The notes below the pieces were generated by a model that was given only the letters and a program-made list of their open reading frames with translations, did not search any database and was not told the DNA's origin. A stretch of DNA of 64,000 nt from Desulfobacca acetoxidans DSM 11109 (GTDB lineage Bacteria > Desulfobacterota > Desulfobaccia > Desulfobaccales > Desulfobaccaceae), in NCBI RefSeq assembly GCF_000195295.1, contig NC_015388.1:1736001-1800000 (forward strand). Reading direction: 5' to 3'. The stretch's first letter is position 1, and each line of letters begins with the position of its first letter. Below are positions 6,024 to 61,063 of the stretch, one piece after another. The translations under genes and the position numbers were made by a program.

Positions 6024-7232
6024 CTAGTTCGATTGTACCGGCGATGTGCTGACATTGGAAACTTTCTGGCCGACCTTGGGGCCTTCCCAGGGGACAACCT
6101 TGACTGAGATGCCAGGCTGCACTTTCATCACGCCTTCAACCACGACGCGTTCCCCTATTTTAAGACCTGAGGCAACAAGCCATTGGTCGCCGATGGCGCG
6201 ATCGAGGGTCAACAGCCGCTGTTGCACTGTATTAGCATCGTCAACTACCAAGGTGATAGGCTGCCCCTTAGGGTTGCGGCTCACACTTTGTTGAGGAATC
6301 AGGAGGGCCTGTTCAGCGATGCCTTCCTGGATCACCGCCCGAACAAACATTCCCGGCAGGAGAAGGTGTTGCGGATTGGGAACGACGATACGCAGGGTGA
6401 AAGAGCCGGTTGTCGGATCTACGGTAACATCGCGAAATTGCAAGGTGCCTTCCAGGGGATACGGTGTGCCGTCTTCCAGGAGGATATGAACTTTTCGGCC
6501 GTTATTGCCATCCTTGCTGAGTCGCCCGGCTTCCAGATGGCGTTTTAAACGCAAAAGCTCGGCCGACGATTGGGTCACATCCACATATATAGGATCGAGC
6601 TGCTGGATAGTAGCTAAAGACATGGGTTGATACGCCGTTACCAAGGCACCGTCCGTAACGCTGGATCTGCCAATGCGTCCGGATATGGGGGCGGTGACGC
6701 GGGTATAGCCCAAATTGATGCGCGCCCCTTCCACTGCGGTTTTCCAATATTCAATCTCGGCCTGGGCCTGTCCCATAGCGGCGGCGGCGTCGTCGCAATC
6801 CTGCCTGCTAACTGCTCTGTCAGTCAGCAACTCCTCGCACCTTTGGGCCTTCAACCGGATCGAAGGCAGATTGGCTTGCGCCTTCCCGAGGGAGGCTTTG
6901 GCAGAGTCAAGGGCCACCTGAAAGGGAGCGGGATCGATCTGGTAGAGCAGTTGCCCGACTTTGACATCAGAGCCTTCCCGGAAAAGGCGTTTCTGGATGA
7001 TACCGTTGACCTGGGGGCGTATCTCTGCTACCAGGTAAGCCGATGTTCTCCCCGGCAACTCGGTGGTCAACTCTACCTGCTGCGGTTTTACCACTACGGC
7101 GGCTACTTCCGGGACCGAGGGCGGCCCGGCCTGCTGCTTGCGCCAGCTATCACAGCCGCCTGGCAAAATGGTCAGAGCCAGCAAAGCTACAATCCATGTT
7201 AGCGTGATACAGCCTTTCTTGTGCCCGTGCAT
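6024..7232 (-). CDS. RND efflux membrane fusion lipoprotein (AcrA/MexA-like)
   Basis: Periplasmic adaptor linking the RND pump to its outer-membrane channel. It has a signal peptide ending in the lipobox LPGGC, a biotinyl-lipoyl-like motif (RTSAYLVAEIRPQVNGII), an alpha-hairpin region (residues about 95-165) and beta-barrel and membrane-proximal domains. The ATG at 7232 is preferred because GGAG lies six bases upstream; an ATG at 7244 is in frame. It lies between tetR and the pump gene in the same leftward operon. Confidence 0.93.
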   Translation of the reverse strand: MHGHKKGCITLTWIVALLALTILPGGCDSWRKQQAGPPSVPEVAAVVVKPQQVELTTELPGRTSAYLVAEIRPQVNGIIQKRLFREGSDVKVGQLLYQIDPAPFQVALDSAKASLGKAQANLPSIRLKAQRCEELLTDRAVSRQDCDDAAAAMGQAQAEIEYWKTAVEGARINLGYTRVTAPISGRIGRSSVTDGALVTAYQPMSLATIQQLDPIYVDVTQSSAELLRLKRHLEAGRLSKDGNNGRKVHILLEDGTPYPLEGTLQFRDVTVDPTTGSFTLRIVVPNPQHLLLPGMFVRAVIQEGIAEQALLIPQQSVSRNPKGQPITLVVDDANTVQQRLLTLDRAIGDQWLVASGLKIGERVVVEGVMKVQPGISVKVVPWEGPKVGQKVSNVSTSPVQSN

Positions 7233-7290
7233 CAGAATCTCCATAAATGTTCAATGATGAATATATTAGGCCGCAAACCCACCCACCGCG

Positions 7291-7917
7291 TTAAGGCTCC
7301 AAAAGTCCTTTGAAAAAAATATCCAAAATGGCGTCCGGGTCTTCTGGGTAAGGATGGCGCTCGGGGGCGTCGAGCCAGAGAAGCAGAAACGCGTCTATGA
7401 CGCTGGAGAGAGTTACCGCCAGGTAATAAGGATCGGCGATGTTTTTAAATCGTTGGTTTTTGATGCCGCTGGCAAAGATGTCAGCAATGCTTTCCAGAGA
7501 ATTGTAATATCTTTTGCGGAGTTCGTCATCCAGACCAGCCTTGAGGTTGAAGCTCGCCCCTCGGCTCTCGGCCAGATACAGGCGAATAAAGGGCAGGTTG
7601 CGGTGAAATACCTCAGTTTTGGCCCGGACATAACTGCGCAGTTTTTCTACTTCGTCCTGTGGCTGTTCAATTGCTCGCATGATTGAGTCTTCAAACTTGT
7701 CACATAGTTCCCGGACCAGTGCCTTGTAGAGGTCTTCCTTATTTTGGAAAAACTTATAAAGTGTCCCAATAGCAAATTCGGATTTTTCGGCAATCTCCTG
7801 TACGGAGACATTGTGGTAGCCCTTCTGGGAGAAAAGATCGAGGGCGGTGGCAAGTATCTCTTGACGTTGCCGCAATTTTTCCCTCTCCCGCCTGGGAAGC
7901 TTATTATCTGCCGCCAT
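7291..7917 (-). CDS. TetR/AcrR family repressor of the efflux operon
   Basis: A typical TetR regulator of about 208 residues. The N-terminal helix-turn-helix is seen in ALDLFSQKGYHNVSVQEIAE followed by GTLYKFFQNKEDLY; the C-terminal half is the ligand-binding helical domain. It is the first gene of the RND operon, so it probably controls itself and the pump. ATG 7917 has AGGA five bases upstream; ATG 7923 is also possible. A good promoter and a palindrome lie just upstream (7942-7993). Confidence 0.9.
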   Translation of the reverse strand: MAADNKLPRREREKLRQRQEILATALDLFSQKGYHNVSVQEIAEKSEFAIGTLYKFFQNKEDLYKALVRELCDKFEDSIMRAIEQPQDEVEKLRSYVRAKTEVFHRNLPFIRLYLAESRGASFNLKAGLDDELRKRYYNSLESIADIFASGIKNQRFKNIADPYYLAVTLSSVIDAFLLLWLDAPERHPYPEDPDAILDIFFKGLLEP

Positions 7918-9002: not shown

Positions 9003-10928
9003 ATGTCAACCGTAACCGAAAGAATTATTAAAGCCCATCTCGTTTCCGGTAAGATGGCTCTGGGCGAGGAGATAGCCATTCGGATTGATCAAACCCTGAC
9101 CCAGGATGCTACCGGCACCATGGCTTGCCTGGAGTTTGAGGCCATGGGTGCGCCCAGCGTGCATACCGAGCTGTCTGTAAGTTACGTGGACCACAACCTG
9201 TTGCAGACGGACTATAAGAATGCTGATGACCATCGCTTTTTGCAATCCTTTGCGGCGGGTCATGGTATTTATTTTTCGCCACCCGGTAATGGTATCTGCC
9301 ATCAGGTGCATCTGGAGGCCTTTGGTGTTCCTGGCAAGACATTGTTGGGTTCCGATAGCCACACTCCTACCGGTGGAGGGTTGGGGATGCTGGCCATAGG
9401 GGCCGGGGGGTTGGATGTTGCCCTGGCCATGGCCGGTCAGCCGTTTTACCTGGTCATGCCTGAAGTTGTCGGCGTGCACCTGATTGGCAGACTGCCGGAC
9501 TGGGTTTCGGCCAAAGATGTCATTCTGGAACTGCTCCGCCGTCTTACGGTTAAAGGCGGGGTGGGTAAGATTCTAGAATATTTCGGACCTGGAGTGCAGA
9601 CCCTGTCCGTCCCTGATCGAGCTACTATTGCCAATATGGGGGCTGAATTGGGGGCTACCACCTCCGTCTTCCCTTCGGACGCCGTAACCAAAAGCTTTTT
9701 GGCCAGCCAGGGGCGGACGGCGGTTTATCGTTCCCTGCGGGCCAGCAACGCCGAGGATTTTAAAGAGATTATCGAAGTGGACCTTGGCTCGCTGACGCCC
9801 AAAATCGCCTGCCCGTCGTCGCCGGACAAGGTTAGAGATGTCAGTGACGTGGAAGGCACTCCGGTGCAGCAGGTTGCCATCGGTTCGTGCAGCAACTCCT
9901 CCTACCGGGATCTGATGATCGTGGCCAAGATCTTGGAAGGTCGAAAGATCCACCCCCAAGTAAGCCTGGAGATCAATCCCGGCTCTCGGCAGGTCTTAGA
10001 AAATGTCACTATTGCAGGGGGACTGCTGTCACTGATCCGGGCGGGGGCACGGATGCACCAATCCGGTTGTCTCGGCTGTATCGGCATGGGTCAGGCTCCG
10101 GCGACCAACACCGTGTCGCTGCGTACCTTCCCCCGCAATTTTCCCGGACGCAGTGGCACGAAAAATGATCAGGTATACCTGGTGAGTCCGGAAACCGCCG
10201 CGGCTGCGGCCATCTATGGTAAAATCACCGATCCCAGACGGCTGGGCGACTATCCGAAGATCAGACAACCTAGACATTTTGTGATAGAAAACCGCCAGTT
10301 ACAGGCCCCTTTAGACCCTGGCCAGTCCTGTGAGATCATCCGGGGACCCAATATCCAACCTTTCCCAAAGTTTACCGCCATTCCTGAGACCTGGGAGGGC
10401 CAGGTATTCCTGAAAGTTGGCGATAACATCACCACAGATCACATCATGCCCGCGGGTAGTCAGATTCTGCCTCTCCGGAGTAATATCCCGGCTATCAGTA
10501 GATTCGTCTATCAAGCCGTAGACCCCGGATTTATTGCCAGAGCCGAACAGAGCGGCGAAGGCGCAGTGGTCGGGGGCGATAACTATGGCCAGGGCTCCAG
10601 CCGGGAGCATGCCGCCCTGGCGCCGCGGTATCTGGGTGTCAGGATTAAATTGGCTAAAAGCTTTGCTCGCATTCACAAGGCGAATCTCATCAATTTCGGC
10701 ATCCTGCCCCTGGTTTTTGAAAACCCTCAAGATTATGATCGGATTCAATCGGGAGACCGCCTGCTGCTGCCTAACCTGCGCCAACGCCTAATGGCCGGAG
10801 ACGAACGATTGCCCTTGTTGGTCAATGGGGAGGAATGCTGGGTCCGGTTGGAACTCTCCCCCCGTCACCGGCAGATTATCGCCGCCGGAGGTTTGCTCAA
10901 CATGCCAGACGGGAACAGCCCAAAATGA
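9003..10928 (+). CDS. Aconitate hydratase, Aquifex type
   Basis: Citrate/isocitrate isomerase of about 641 residues, the short single-chain aconitase form found in Aquifex and many anaerobes. Visible are GSDSHTPTGGGLGMLAIGAGG near residue 120, the cluster cysteines in GSCSNSS and SGCLGCIGMGQAP, and the C-terminal swivel domain with TDHIMPAG and GGDNYGQGSSREHAALAPR. It acts in the citric acid cycle in the cytoplasm, in either direction. Flanking genes are unrelated, so it seems to be transcribed alone. Confidence 0.94.
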   Translation: MSTVTERIIKAHLVSGKMALGEEIAIRIDQTLTQDATGTMACLEFEAMGAPSVHTELSVSYVDHNLLQTDYKNADDHRFLQSFAAGHGIYFSPPGNGICHQVHLEAFGVPGKTLLGSDSHTPTGGGLGMLAIGAGGLDVALAMAGQPFYLVMPEVVGVHLIGRLPDWVSAKDVILELLRRLTVKGGVGKILEYFGPGVQTLSVPDRATIANMGAELGATTSVFPSDAVTKSFLASQGRTAVYRSLRASNAEDFKEIIEVDLGSLTPKIACPSSPDKVRDVSDVEGTPVQQVAIGSCSNSSYRDLMIVAKILEGRKIHPQVSLEINPGSRQVLENVTIAGGLLSLIRAGARMHQSGCLGCIGMGQAPATNTVSLRTFPRNFPGRSGTKNDQVYLVSPETAAAAAIYGKITDPRRLGDYPKIRQPRHFVIENRQLQAPLDPGQSCEIIRGPNIQPFPKFTAIPETWEGQVFLKVGDNITTDHIMPAGSQILPLRSNIPAISRFVYQAVDPGFIARAEQSGEGAVVGGDNYGQGSSREHAALAPRYLGVRIKLAKSFARIHKANLINFGILPLVFENPQDYDRIQSGDRLLLPNLRQRLMAGDERLPLLVNGEECWVRLELSPRHRQIIAAGGLLNMPDGNSPK

Positions 10929-11038
10929 AGCAATGGCAGGTCGGGAAATAAGAGATAATGATCCTTTCCTCATTACCAGGATCTGCCCCAGATTTTATTC
11001 TGATGGTCGGTCTGACGGATGTTCTTTAGGAGTTGATC

Positions 11039-11111
11039 AGTGTTGTAGGGCAGGAAAGCGGAGCGCCTCCCGCCTTCTAAAATGATCTATTCTCTCAGCT
11101 AGCTGAAGTAT
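11039..11111 (+). repeat. Composite dispersed repeat: family A plus family B, copy 2
   Basis: Family A (GTAGGGCAGGAAAGCGGA then GCGCCTCCCGCCTTCT, 11039-11082) is directly followed by family B (CTATTCTCTCAG then TAGCTGAAG, 11087-11111). The same A-B order is found, inverted, at 31764-31912 with about 70 extra bases between the parts, and B alone occurs at 45442-45489. Confidence 0.65.
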
Positions 11112-11120
11112 TACATCTTA

Positions 11121-11723
11121 TTATTGTACCCGAAAGCTCGTTTCCGGAAATCCGGTTGGATCGAATTTGGGATCTAGCACGGCGAGAAAATCGACAAGAA
11201 TATGAGCAGTGGCGCCCCAGATGGTGGTGTCGGGCATCTGGCAGTAAAAAACCGATGAGAGTCTGCCCTCCCACTCATGTGGGCCGGTGCGCCAACGGTG
11301 AGGCTGTAAAAGTTCCTGCACCGGGTATGACAAGAGGCGGGCTACTTCCCGGGTATTGAGTTTAAAATCATAGGGATAGGGGATGAGCCCGACAAAACTG
11401 TGCACCAGGAACCCGGTGGTGGTCAGACTGGTGTTTAAATAACCCAAAACGTCAATCTTCTCCGGCGCCAGTCCGATTTCCTCCTGGGATTCTCGTAAAG
11501 CAGTACTAAGCAGATTATCGTCCTCGGGATCAAAGACGCCTCCAGGATAGGAAATCTGTCCGCGGTGATGCTTCACCAGATAGGTCCTCTGAGTAAAGAG
11601 CATCATCAGTTCCGATCCCCTAAAAAACAGGGGAATGAGGATGGCGGCGGGGACGCCCTTAGTCGTCACCGGATGTGTTAACCGGACATCGGCAAAAAGT
11701 TGGCGCAGACGTTGGGGGGTCAT
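11121..11723 (-). CDS. nudL: Nudix hydrolase, probable CoA pyrophosphatase
   Basis: A 200-residue Nudix enzyme. The UPF0035/CoA-ase signature LFTQRTYLVKHHRGQISYPGG sits directly before the Nudix box, whose RESQEEIGL core carries the metal-binding Glu residues. This combination marks enzymes that split coenzyme A into phosphopantetheine and 3',5'-ADP. The ATG is preceded by CAGGTGA. It has no operon partner. Substrate assignment rests on the signature. Confidence 0.88.
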   Translation of the reverse strand: MTPQRLRQLFADVRLTHPVTTKGVPAAILIPLFFRGSELMMLFTQRTYLVKHHRGQISYPGGVFDPEDDNLLSTALRESQEEIGLAPEKIDVLGYLNTSLTTTGFLVHSFVGLIPYPYDFKLNTREVARLLSYPVQELLQPHRWRTGPHEWEGRLSSVFYCQMPDTTIWGATAHILVDFLAVLDPKFDPTGFPETSFRVQ

Positions 11724-56667: not shown

Positions 56668-56751
56668 TAACATAAGTTCATAACAAGAACCAATCCGAAC
56701 GAGACATGGGAAACTATGTTAAATAAAATCGGCTCGGTCAGGAGGATAGAG

Positions 56752-57054
56752 ATGATGTATGCAAAGGGCCGCGGAGGCGGCGGAAGCGGATCTGGCGGAG
56801 GCGGCGGTAGAGGCCGCGGCGGAGGCGGCGGCAGGTGCGGCGGTGGCGCCGGTAGAGGTGCTGGAGGGGGCGCCGGTAGAGGCGGTGGAGGTGGATTTGG
56901 TCAAGGTGGAGGCCGGGGCGGTGGTGTTGCTGCCGGGGCTTTAGGCAACTGCATCTGTCCCTCGTGCGGCTATAAAGAGCCGCATCAACAGGGGATGCCG
57001 TGTTTTCAGAAACAATGTCCCCAATGCGGGGCAACGATGACGCGGGAAGCTTAA
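56752..57054 (+). CDS. Glycine-rich protein with C-terminal zinc ribbon
   Basis: 100 residues. Residues 5-60 are nearly all Gly with some Arg, Ala and Ser; the end is a compact zinc ribbon, NCICPSCGYKEPHQQGMPC then CPQCGATMTRE. This resembles small zinc-ribbon proteins next to NifB-like and DUF5320 genes in anaerobes. AGGAGG precedes the ATG. The next gene follows after 60 bases. Confidence 0.78.
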   Translation: MMYAKGRGGGGSGSGGGGGRGRGGGGGRCGGGAGRGAGGGAGRGGGGGFGQGGGRGGGVAAGALGNCICPSCGYKEPHQQGMPCFQKQCPQCGATMTREA

Positions 57055-57114
57055 AATCCTTCCCATAAATCAACCACTTAAACAAGGCAATATATTGCAA
57101 GGAGGTATATCATC

Positions 57115-57408
57115 ATGCCAGGTTTCGACGGTACTGGACCGAGAGGTCAGGGACCGGGGACCGGTTGGGGTATGGGGCCCTGTGGCACCGGTTTCCGAAG
57201 AGGCTATGGCGGCGGTTTCGGCCGCGGTTTTCGAGGTTCTCGCTCCCGTTGGGGCGGTTGGGGCCGTCCTCGTTGGGGTTGGGGTGCCTGGGAAGGCGGC
57301 TACGCCACTCCTGAGAGTGAGGCCCAGGCCTTGAAACAGGAGGAATCCTATCTCCAGAGCGAGCTGGAGGCTATCAAGCGGCGCCTGAGCGAAATTGAAG
57401 GTGCTTGA
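57115..57408 (+). CDS. DUF5320 family glycine-rich protein
   Basis: 97 residues. The opening MPGFDGTGPRGQGPGTG is the hallmark of DUF5320. The middle is rich in Gly, Arg and Trp, and the end is a coiled-coil helix (AQALKQEESYLQSELEAIKR). DUF5320 proteins accompany iron-molybdenum-cofactor-like and Mrp genes in anaerobes; neither is adjacent here. GGAGG lies upstream. Unit with the zinc-ribbon gene. Confidence 0.85.
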   Translation: MPGFDGTGPRGQGPGTGWGMGPCGTGFRRGYGGGFGRGFRGSRSRWGGWGRPRWGWGAWEGGYATPESEAQALKQEESYLQSELEAIKRRLSEIEGA

Positions 57409-59811: not shown

Positions 59812-59992
59812 GTCCGGATGTAAGTATTGATTGAGGGGTGGAGCGGTGCCGTACTAAGAAATAAGGTATTGGCTTGCGGCGGATGCCCGATTTATTTGTT
59901 TATTGACCTTGAATATTGAACTCTGGCGCAATACCAGGGGAGATGAGGGTAGGGTTGCGCCAGGACCCTGCCGGTATGAAAAGGAGAAGCTT

Positions 59993-60622
59993 ATGCCCCC
60001 GGCTGATCTCTATCTGTTGCGACTGCAGTGGCTGCCCTATCTGAGTCTGGATGAATGCCAGGCCGCCGGTGCCGATGGTTGTGAAGATTTTCTGGTCCGT
60101 TTGCAAAACCAGGACCTGGATTTGGGAAATTGTCCCGGTTTAACTGCCCAGAAACGCTATGCTCTGCAAATAGCCCTGAAGGGGGCGGAACTGGCGCCGC
60201 CAGTGGAGGCCATGCAACTGCCGCAGCCCACGAACCCCGGGTTGTTTGAAATTAACGAGCCCGGGCCGCAGGCGCCGGTGTTAGTAAGCGGTAATAGTGA
60301 GATTACCCTGACGGTGTTGACGGCAGTGTTAGCCCTGACGGTCAGCCCTTTTTACCTGTTGTTGTTAGACTGCCGGGGGGATACGGTGGACATGGCGATG
60401 ATCTTTGAGACGTTCACCCCGGCCAAACTAGCCGCGGCGTTGCAGGAGGAACAGGTAAGCGAAAAAGTCGAGCATCGGCGGCTGGTGATTCCCGGACTGG
60501 CCGCCTCCCTGGAAAAGCCTATGACGGAGGCAACGGGTTGGGAGATACAGGTGGGGCCGATCTGCGCCCTGGAGTTGCCGCTCTATTTTGGCGACTACTG
60601 GCTGCCGCCAACAGGAAGCTGA
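59993..60622 (+). CDS. Miniature corrinoid Fe-S protein large-subunit-like protein (AcsC/CdhD-like)
   Basis: 209 residues. Residues 14-50 match the N-terminal Fe-S domain of AcsC/CdhD with exact spacing: Cys22, Ala25 (second Cys lost), Cys30 and Cys47, ending NCPGLT. Residues 95-205 match the C-terminal cobalamin-binding part (PVLVSGN, LLLLDCRGDTVDMA, RRLVIPGLAASL, TGWEIQVGP). The large TIM barrel between the two parts is absent. Starts at ATG 59993 behind AAAGGAGAAG. It lies between a histidine kinase and a response regulator gene. Function unknown. Confidence 0.75.
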   Translation: MPPADLYLLRLQWLPYLSLDECQAAGADGCEDFLVRLQNQDLDLGNCPGLTAQKRYALQIALKGAELAPPVEAMQLPQPTNPGLFEINEPGPQAPVLVSGNSEITLTVLTAVLALTVSPFYLLLLDCRGDTVDMAMIFETFTPAKLAAALQEEQVSEKVEHRRLVIPGLAASLEKPMTEATGWEIQVGPICALELPLYFGDYWLPPTGS

Positions 60623-60712
60623 CAGAAAGCTCATCGATAGCAGGTGTCTTCCCCTTGTCACACCGTTCTGCAGGGCTTATAATGGCGGTATACCTCAGTC
60701 GGGAGATGCAGC

Positions 60713-61063
60713 ATGAAAAGAATTCTGGTGGTGGATGACGAGGAGCCTATCCGCAGTTATCTTAAGGAAGAACTAACCGAAGCGGGTTATGAGGTGCTTG
60801 TGGCTGCCAGTGCTCCGGAGGCCTTGAAAATCATTGAGCACCAGGATCTCAACCTGGTGATTCTGGATATCCGGATGCCGGGGATGACCGGAGTGGAGGC
60901 GCTCCCGCGTATTCTGGGACTGAAGGAGCATTTGCCGGTGATTCTCAACACTGCTTATTCCCAGTATCAACAGGATTTTATGGCCTGGGCGGCCAACGCC
61001 TATGTCATCAAATCCTTTGATCTGACCGAATTAAAGGAGAAGATTCGGGAACTCATTACCTAA
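60713..61063 (+). CDS. Single-domain response regulator (CheY-like)
   Basis: 116 residues, receiver domain only. Visible are VVDDEEP (acidic pocket), LVILDIRMPG with the phosphoacceptor Asp, NTAYS with the conserved Thr, and YVIKSFDL with the Lys. No output domain, so it acts by protein contacts or relays phosphate. GGGAGATGC precedes the ATG. Its most likely donor is the PAS kinase at 58738. Confidence 0.9.
   Translation: MKRILVVDDEEPIRSYLKEELTEAGYEVLVAASAPEALKIIEHQDLNLVILDIRMPGMTGVEALPRILGLKEHLPVILNTAYSQYQQDFMAWAANAYVIKSFDLTELKEKIRELIT

Follow-up and report, generated by a model that had tools for sequence, protein, structure and literature searches.

A short, barrel-less relative of the corrinoid Fe-S protein large subunit in Desulfobacca acetoxidans and its predicted cobalamin pocket

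What might a protein do that resembles both ends of the large subunit (AcsC/CdhD) of the corrinoid Fe-S protein (CFeSP) and has no TIM barrel between them? The question is raised by a gene in a 64,000-nucleotide stretch (hereafter the window) of the complete 3,282,536-base genome of Desulfobacca acetoxidans. An initial annotation, made from the letters alone, had described its product as a miniature AcsC/CdhD-like protein in which a cysteine pattern with one replacement runs directly into a cobalamin-binding segment. The frame is intact, as had been stated, extending from an ATG at 59993 to a stop at 60620-60622 and encoding 209 residues from a start Met common to the homologues, and the good ribosome-binding site that had been claimed is present six bases 5' of the ATG. 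Likewise, the cysteines at residues 22, 30 and 47 and the alanine at residue 25 lie where they had been placed. The features of the gene are as follows.

59981..59986, + strand: ribosome-binding site AAGGAG, read directly
59993..60622, + strand: mini-CFeSP gene, 209 aa (intact ORF, same-length homologues, dN/dS)
59993..60214, + strand: residues 1-74, degenerate CFeSP-type [4Fe-4S] domain (gapless alignment with four-cysteine relatives, PF04060 in relatives)
60056-60058, + strand: Cys22, cluster cysteine position
60065-60067, + strand: Ala25, replaced cluster cysteine position
60080-60082, + strand: Cys30, cluster cysteine position
60131-60133, + strand: Cys47, cluster cysteine position
60215..60619, + strand: residues 75-209, CFeSP/HgcA-type cobalamin-binding domain (PF03599, PDB sequence match, AlphaFold model)
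60287..60307, + strand: S99-G-N-S-E-I-T105, predicted contacts to the B12 nucleotide tail, equivalent to CFeSP Thr339/Thr345 and HgcA Thr60/Thr66
60392..60394, + strand: Met134, predicted to lie under the cobalt (gapless structural offset of +240 to 2ycl; literature)
60563..60568, + strand: Cys191-Ala192 of the GPIC-A-ELP motif, with A192 the equivalent of HgcA Ala153, a predicted backbone contact to B12

The profile search and structure prediction that the annotation had proposed as checks both agree with its C-terminal cobalamin segment. PF03599 (CdhD) matches residues 75-190 at profile positions 263-378 of 387 with an E-value of 1.6e-16 and 60.5 bits, above the gathering cut-off of 24.8 bits, and by sequence search the CFeSP large subunit in the PDB (2h9a/4c1n) matches the same residues at E about 1e-18. 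The AlphaFold model is confident (pLDDT 87) and aligns with the CFeSP structure 2ycl at a Z score of 21.0 over 127 residues and 1.8 A, without a net gap; against a model of HgcA the Z score is 13.3. The reported absence of the barrel is borne out by the length of the protein, by a match limited to the last third of PF03599, and by the model, which contains no barrel.

A cobalamin-binding role, as the annotation had supposed, appears plausible because the residues of the predicted pocket are kept. In HgcA, B12 is contacted by Thr60, Thr66, Val91 N and Ala153 N, which are said to be conserved in CFeSP (PMC7305189), and these map to S99, T105, V132 and A192 in a residue register set by hand via the CFeSP alignment. 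Ser or Thr occupies both position 99 and position 105 in 46/46 aligned members, and the wider set of S/T99, N101, T/S105 and GP188-189 is kept in all 46 as well. The residue nearest the cobalt in CFeSP is a Thr (PMC13331322); in the legend of Fig. 6 of that paper, the numbers Thr378 (Moorella) and Thr375 (C. autoethanogenum) seem to have been swapped, to judge from the structural offsets. The position is taken here by Met134, which is invariant (46/46) and equivalent to Thr374 in CFeSP and Cys93 in HgcA. As modelled, Met134 may be a cobalt ligand or a mere filler of the lower face, and neither is favoured. Cys191, which adjoins the predicted A192 contact, is also invariant in the sub-family, and together D133, M134, C191 and E194 are new invariant residues that are absent from AcsC. 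Furthermore, the AAGK of the CFeSP cap helix has become AMIFET, a change that could mean that corrinoid binding is weak or lost. On balance, we consider it likely that the protein binds a corrinoid.

The N-terminal part has diverged further. It gives no match to the PF04060 profile at E 1, and its sequence match to the CFeSP large subunit in the PDB is 0.4-4.5 bits. Modelled alone, it yields a low-confidence structure (pLDDT 71) without any significant match to a known fold, and with a single second-look hit to residues 3-66 of CFeSP 4c1n at Z 4.2. Same-length relatives that carry C-x2-C-x4-C-x16-C do match PF04060 (L073, E 1.6e-10; range over relatives 1.6e-10 to 2.8e-13), and for this reason we regard the segment as the remnant of a real Fe-S domain. 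The full motif is kept in 16 of the 20 distinct members of the Desulfobacca-type sub-family outside class Desulfobaccia, and in a distinct lineage (L069-L071) only the third cluster cysteine has gone. Within the class, Cys25 is present in 0/26 aligned members, the other three cysteines are kept in 9/26, and 3/26 have none of the four. Thus Ala25 is no peculiarity of one protein: it marks the first step, common to the whole class, in the loss of the cluster, and since the cluster cysteines are lost across the class, Fe-S binding by the Desulfobacca protein seems unlikely. As these cysteines disappear, conservation remains higher in the C-terminal than in the N-terminal domain (mean column entropy in the class 0.84 vs 1.45 bits), so the conserved core is the cobalamin domain.

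Could such a protein simply be the decaying remnant of an acsC gene after an internal deletion, without function? The missing barrel and cysteine fit such an origin, which the remaining evidence already contradicts and to which we assign next to no probability. As the annotation had anticipated, similar short proteins exist in relatives: full- or near-full-length homologues occur in 27 of the 29 class genomes and, among 395 sampled genomes of the phylum, in several further families. These genome-tool searches covered Desulfobacterota, and an exact short-peptide scan of named genomes, which reaches close relatives only, also found homologues in metagenome-assembled genomes. Codon comparison of close relatives gives a dN/dS of about 0.1-0.2 over the whole gene, indicating purifying selection, in keeping with the annotation's view that the gene is no product of random decay. 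An intact AcsC is encoded elsewhere in the genome. When only the cobalamin domain is used for a maximum-likelihood tree, the short proteins (support 96/85), AcsC (99/99) and HgcA (100/99) form three separate groups; long branches meet in this tree, so the order of the groups and the joining of two short sub-families are less sure than their separateness. On this phylogeny, the short proteins make up a third clade, distinct from those of AcsC and HgcA. One genome (L127, G233) encodes a divergent second AcsC of 468 aa that forms a very long branch; the cap region of its cobalamin domain is altered and rich in Cys (DVMCWCHYCL). A limited literature search found no papers that name PF03599 together with PF04060.

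By the features we tested, the protein is a member of the PF03599 fold family and is neither AcsC nor HgcA. With AcsC it shares the order of an Fe-S domain followed by a cobalamin domain, the cobalamin fold and the tail-binding residues, but it has 209 rather than about 450 residues, lacks the barrel and Cys25, has Met where CFeSP has Thr under the cobalt, and lies in its own clade and outside a CODH/ACS locus. Like HgcA, it has this type of cobalamin domain and no barrel; however, it has Met134 in place of the cap-helix Cys93, ends at residue 209 after the cobalamin domain where HgcA continues into a domain of five transmembrane helices, bears an N-terminal Fe-S-type domain, and falls in a separate clade. 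Correspondingly, its scores are below the cut-offs of the NCBIfam AcsC equivalog NF003195 (95.9 bits vs 306) and HgcA model NF040863 (56.7 bits vs 275), and an HgcAB-like fusion model also matches far below its cut-off. MtaC-type proteins (B12-binding_2 plus B12-binding) are likewise small corrinoid carriers of methyl systems that serve barrel methyltransferases, but they have a MetH-like fold. The Class 2 cobalamin radical SAM enzymes (Mmp10, DUF512) contain a smaller CFeSP-like cobalamin domain (Z 5-6; PMC13331322), which is distant and fused to radical SAM domains.

The clearest functional clue comes from a sister sub-family of distant short relatives, which are about 26-28% identical to the Desulfobacca-type protein and have an intact Fe-S domain (PF04060 E 1e-12). 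In 6/6 loci of one order (L085/L096, L107-L111), the sister short protein heads an mta operon, with the gene order kinase, NtrC-type regulator, short protein, MtaA-like methyltransferase, MtaC-like corrinoid protein and MtaB, followed 3' by a CobW-like protein and a RamA-like activase; the view ends early at L110, where the contig stops after mtaA, and at L107, where it stops within mtaB. The sister protein of L109 is encoded at 6726-7457 on the minus strand. Both kinds of small corrinoid protein, the CFeSP-like and the MtaC-type, are thus encoded side by side. Two genomes from a second order encode the short protein apart from the mta cluster, which is on another contig and shares that contig with a second CFeSP. 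There, a second MeTr-AcsD-AcsC-like set sits a few kb downstream of the methanol cluster (L136:14132-17376, L137:12780-15918), which suggests a dedicated CFeSP for methanol-derived methyl groups. Across the two orders (57 genomes), MtaB is present in 7 of the 8 genomes with the sister short protein vs 0/49 without it (Fisher p 3e-8, a test that ignores relatedness, with presence varying within genera), the eighth being the one whose contig ends early (L110). Given this distribution, the sister sub-family is tied to corrinoid methyl transfer of the methanol type; no other functional association that we found was strong. MtaB was in no tested genome with a Desulfobacca-type protein, D. acetoxidans itself having none, and the association would extend to that sub-family by analogy only. 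A search for plasmid-borne sister homologues returned one weak match, in a 2.6 Mb Acetoanaerobium record. In one of the two second-order genomes (L097:93-3557), the short CFeSP-like protein is encoded between arsenate-reductase-like and rhodanese-like genes; an ArsM-like methyltransferase and an arsenite-exporter-like gene are nearby (including 10026-11686), as is another small protein in which a CFeSP-like four-cysteine motif can be seen by eye.

The neighbours of the Desulfobacca gene itself are less informative. The annotation had proposed a search for same-length homologues next to two-component genes, and directly downstream lie the following features.

60655..60683, + strand: sigma-70-like promoter TTGTCA-17-TATAAT, near-consensus, 5' of the response regulator gene
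60713..61063, + strand: single-domain response regulator, a neighbour kept only within the class

Because the promoter-like site lies between the two genes, the response regulator is probably a separate transcription unit. Same-length homologues do lie beside the regulator within the class, where it is found 3' together with GlgC-like and phosphatase genes in nearly all loci with enough flank; these three genes are not at the class locus L041 or outside the class, and the upstream kinase is not conserved next to the gene in relatives. The two-component link therefore appears weak, a matter of class-level synteny, and an operon with these genes is unsupported. No cobalamin riboswitch or other Rfam element except a tRNA scored above threshold near the gene at 26 loci, and we found no conserved neighbour tying the Desulfobacca-type protein to CODH/ACS or cobamide genes. 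D. acetoxidans ASRB2T oxidises acetate via the CODH pathway (PMC3156406), and the genome contains a full AcsC at 2208975, AcsD at 2203195 and an AcsV-like activase at 493150. No HgcA was found in this genome, where the PF03599 matches are AcsC, AcsD and the mini-CFeSP gene only. AcsC is found in nearly every genome with a short protein, a co-occurrence that is uninformative where AcsC is nearly universal.

The explanation we prefer, which we hold with belief and doubt in about equal measure, is that the protein is a stand-alone corrinoid-binding accessory that, in Desulfobacca, would most likely act as a corrinoid holder or donor (loading, storage, repair) for CFeSP; both this partner and this role we infer. 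A cobamide would be held base-off, with its nucleotide tail buried by S99, T105, V132 and A192, Met134 on the lower side of the cobalt and the upper side free. The cobalt would then be presented to a separate barrel-containing partner, since the protein has no barrel of its own. For the sister sub-family the partner system would most likely be MtaA/MtaC/MtaB with the RamA activase, and there the cobalt could receive electrons from the intact cluster. In Desulfobacca the job of holder or donor would need no cluster, and it is favoured for the acetyl-CoA pathway because the cluster has been lost while the pocket is kept.

The protein might instead be a true methyl carrier that works as CFeSP does, taking and giving a methyl group on cobalt with a barrel methyltransferase such as AcsE, with an external activase replacing its own cluster. 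Its cobalamin domain is the same as that of CFeSP, the sister sub-family occurs in mta operons with RamA, and the AcsV-like protein could be such an activase; yet the cluster cysteines are lost across the class, a full CFeSP already exists in the genome and no methyltransferase gene adjoins, so that we find this reading rather unlikely. The annotation had suggested that the protein might be a sensor or an assembly factor. A corrinoid or redox sensor, which would bind the cofactor and signal via a partner, perhaps the response regulator that follows, strikes us as distinctly unlikely: the regulator's persistence within the class and the NtrC-type regulator and kinase 5' in the sister operons speak for it, but the regulator has its own promoter-like site and is absent outside the class and near L041, and the kinase is not conserved. 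Corrinoid binding may also have been lost and the fold kept for protein-protein contact, for example in a CFeSP-mimicking regulator of CODH/ACS. The altered cap helix and the four invariant residues that AcsC lacks would suit such a mimic, which we nonetheless judge decidedly improbable, as the pocket residues kept in 46/46 members are hard to explain without a ligand.

The preferred accessory role fits into a broader discussion of the CFeSP-type cobalamin domain, which has been called the oldest B12 fold (PMC13331322) and had been recognised in CFeSP, in HgcA and in one group of radical SAM enzymes. Tentatively, and with more doubt than belief, we propose that the short proteins may be a third functional branch of the CFeSP/HgcA fold, free-standing modules that lend their cobalt centre to the barrel enzymes of other systems, namely methanol methyltransferases in the sister sub-family and the acetyl-CoA pathway in Desulfobaccia, with Met as lower axial residue in the Desulfobacca-type proteins and a gradual loss of the electron-donating cluster. 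If so, this soluble, barrel-less branch would offer a small, testable system for studying how cobalt is tuned by residues at its lower face and by a neighbouring cluster, and it would point to a component still missing from the anaerobic metabolism of methanol and acetate by sulfate reducers. Its value lies in the Met that never varies beneath the cobalt, in naturally occurring stages of the loss of the cluster, and in a sub-family whose distribution follows that of a methanol methyltransferase.

Elsewhere in the window, two small ORFs rich in Gly lie within 56716-57408. The first (56716-57054) encodes a Gly/Arg-rich stretch followed by a zinc-ribbon-like end with Cys-x2-Cys, and the other (57115-57408) resembles MPGFDGTGPRGQGP proteins of many anaerobes.
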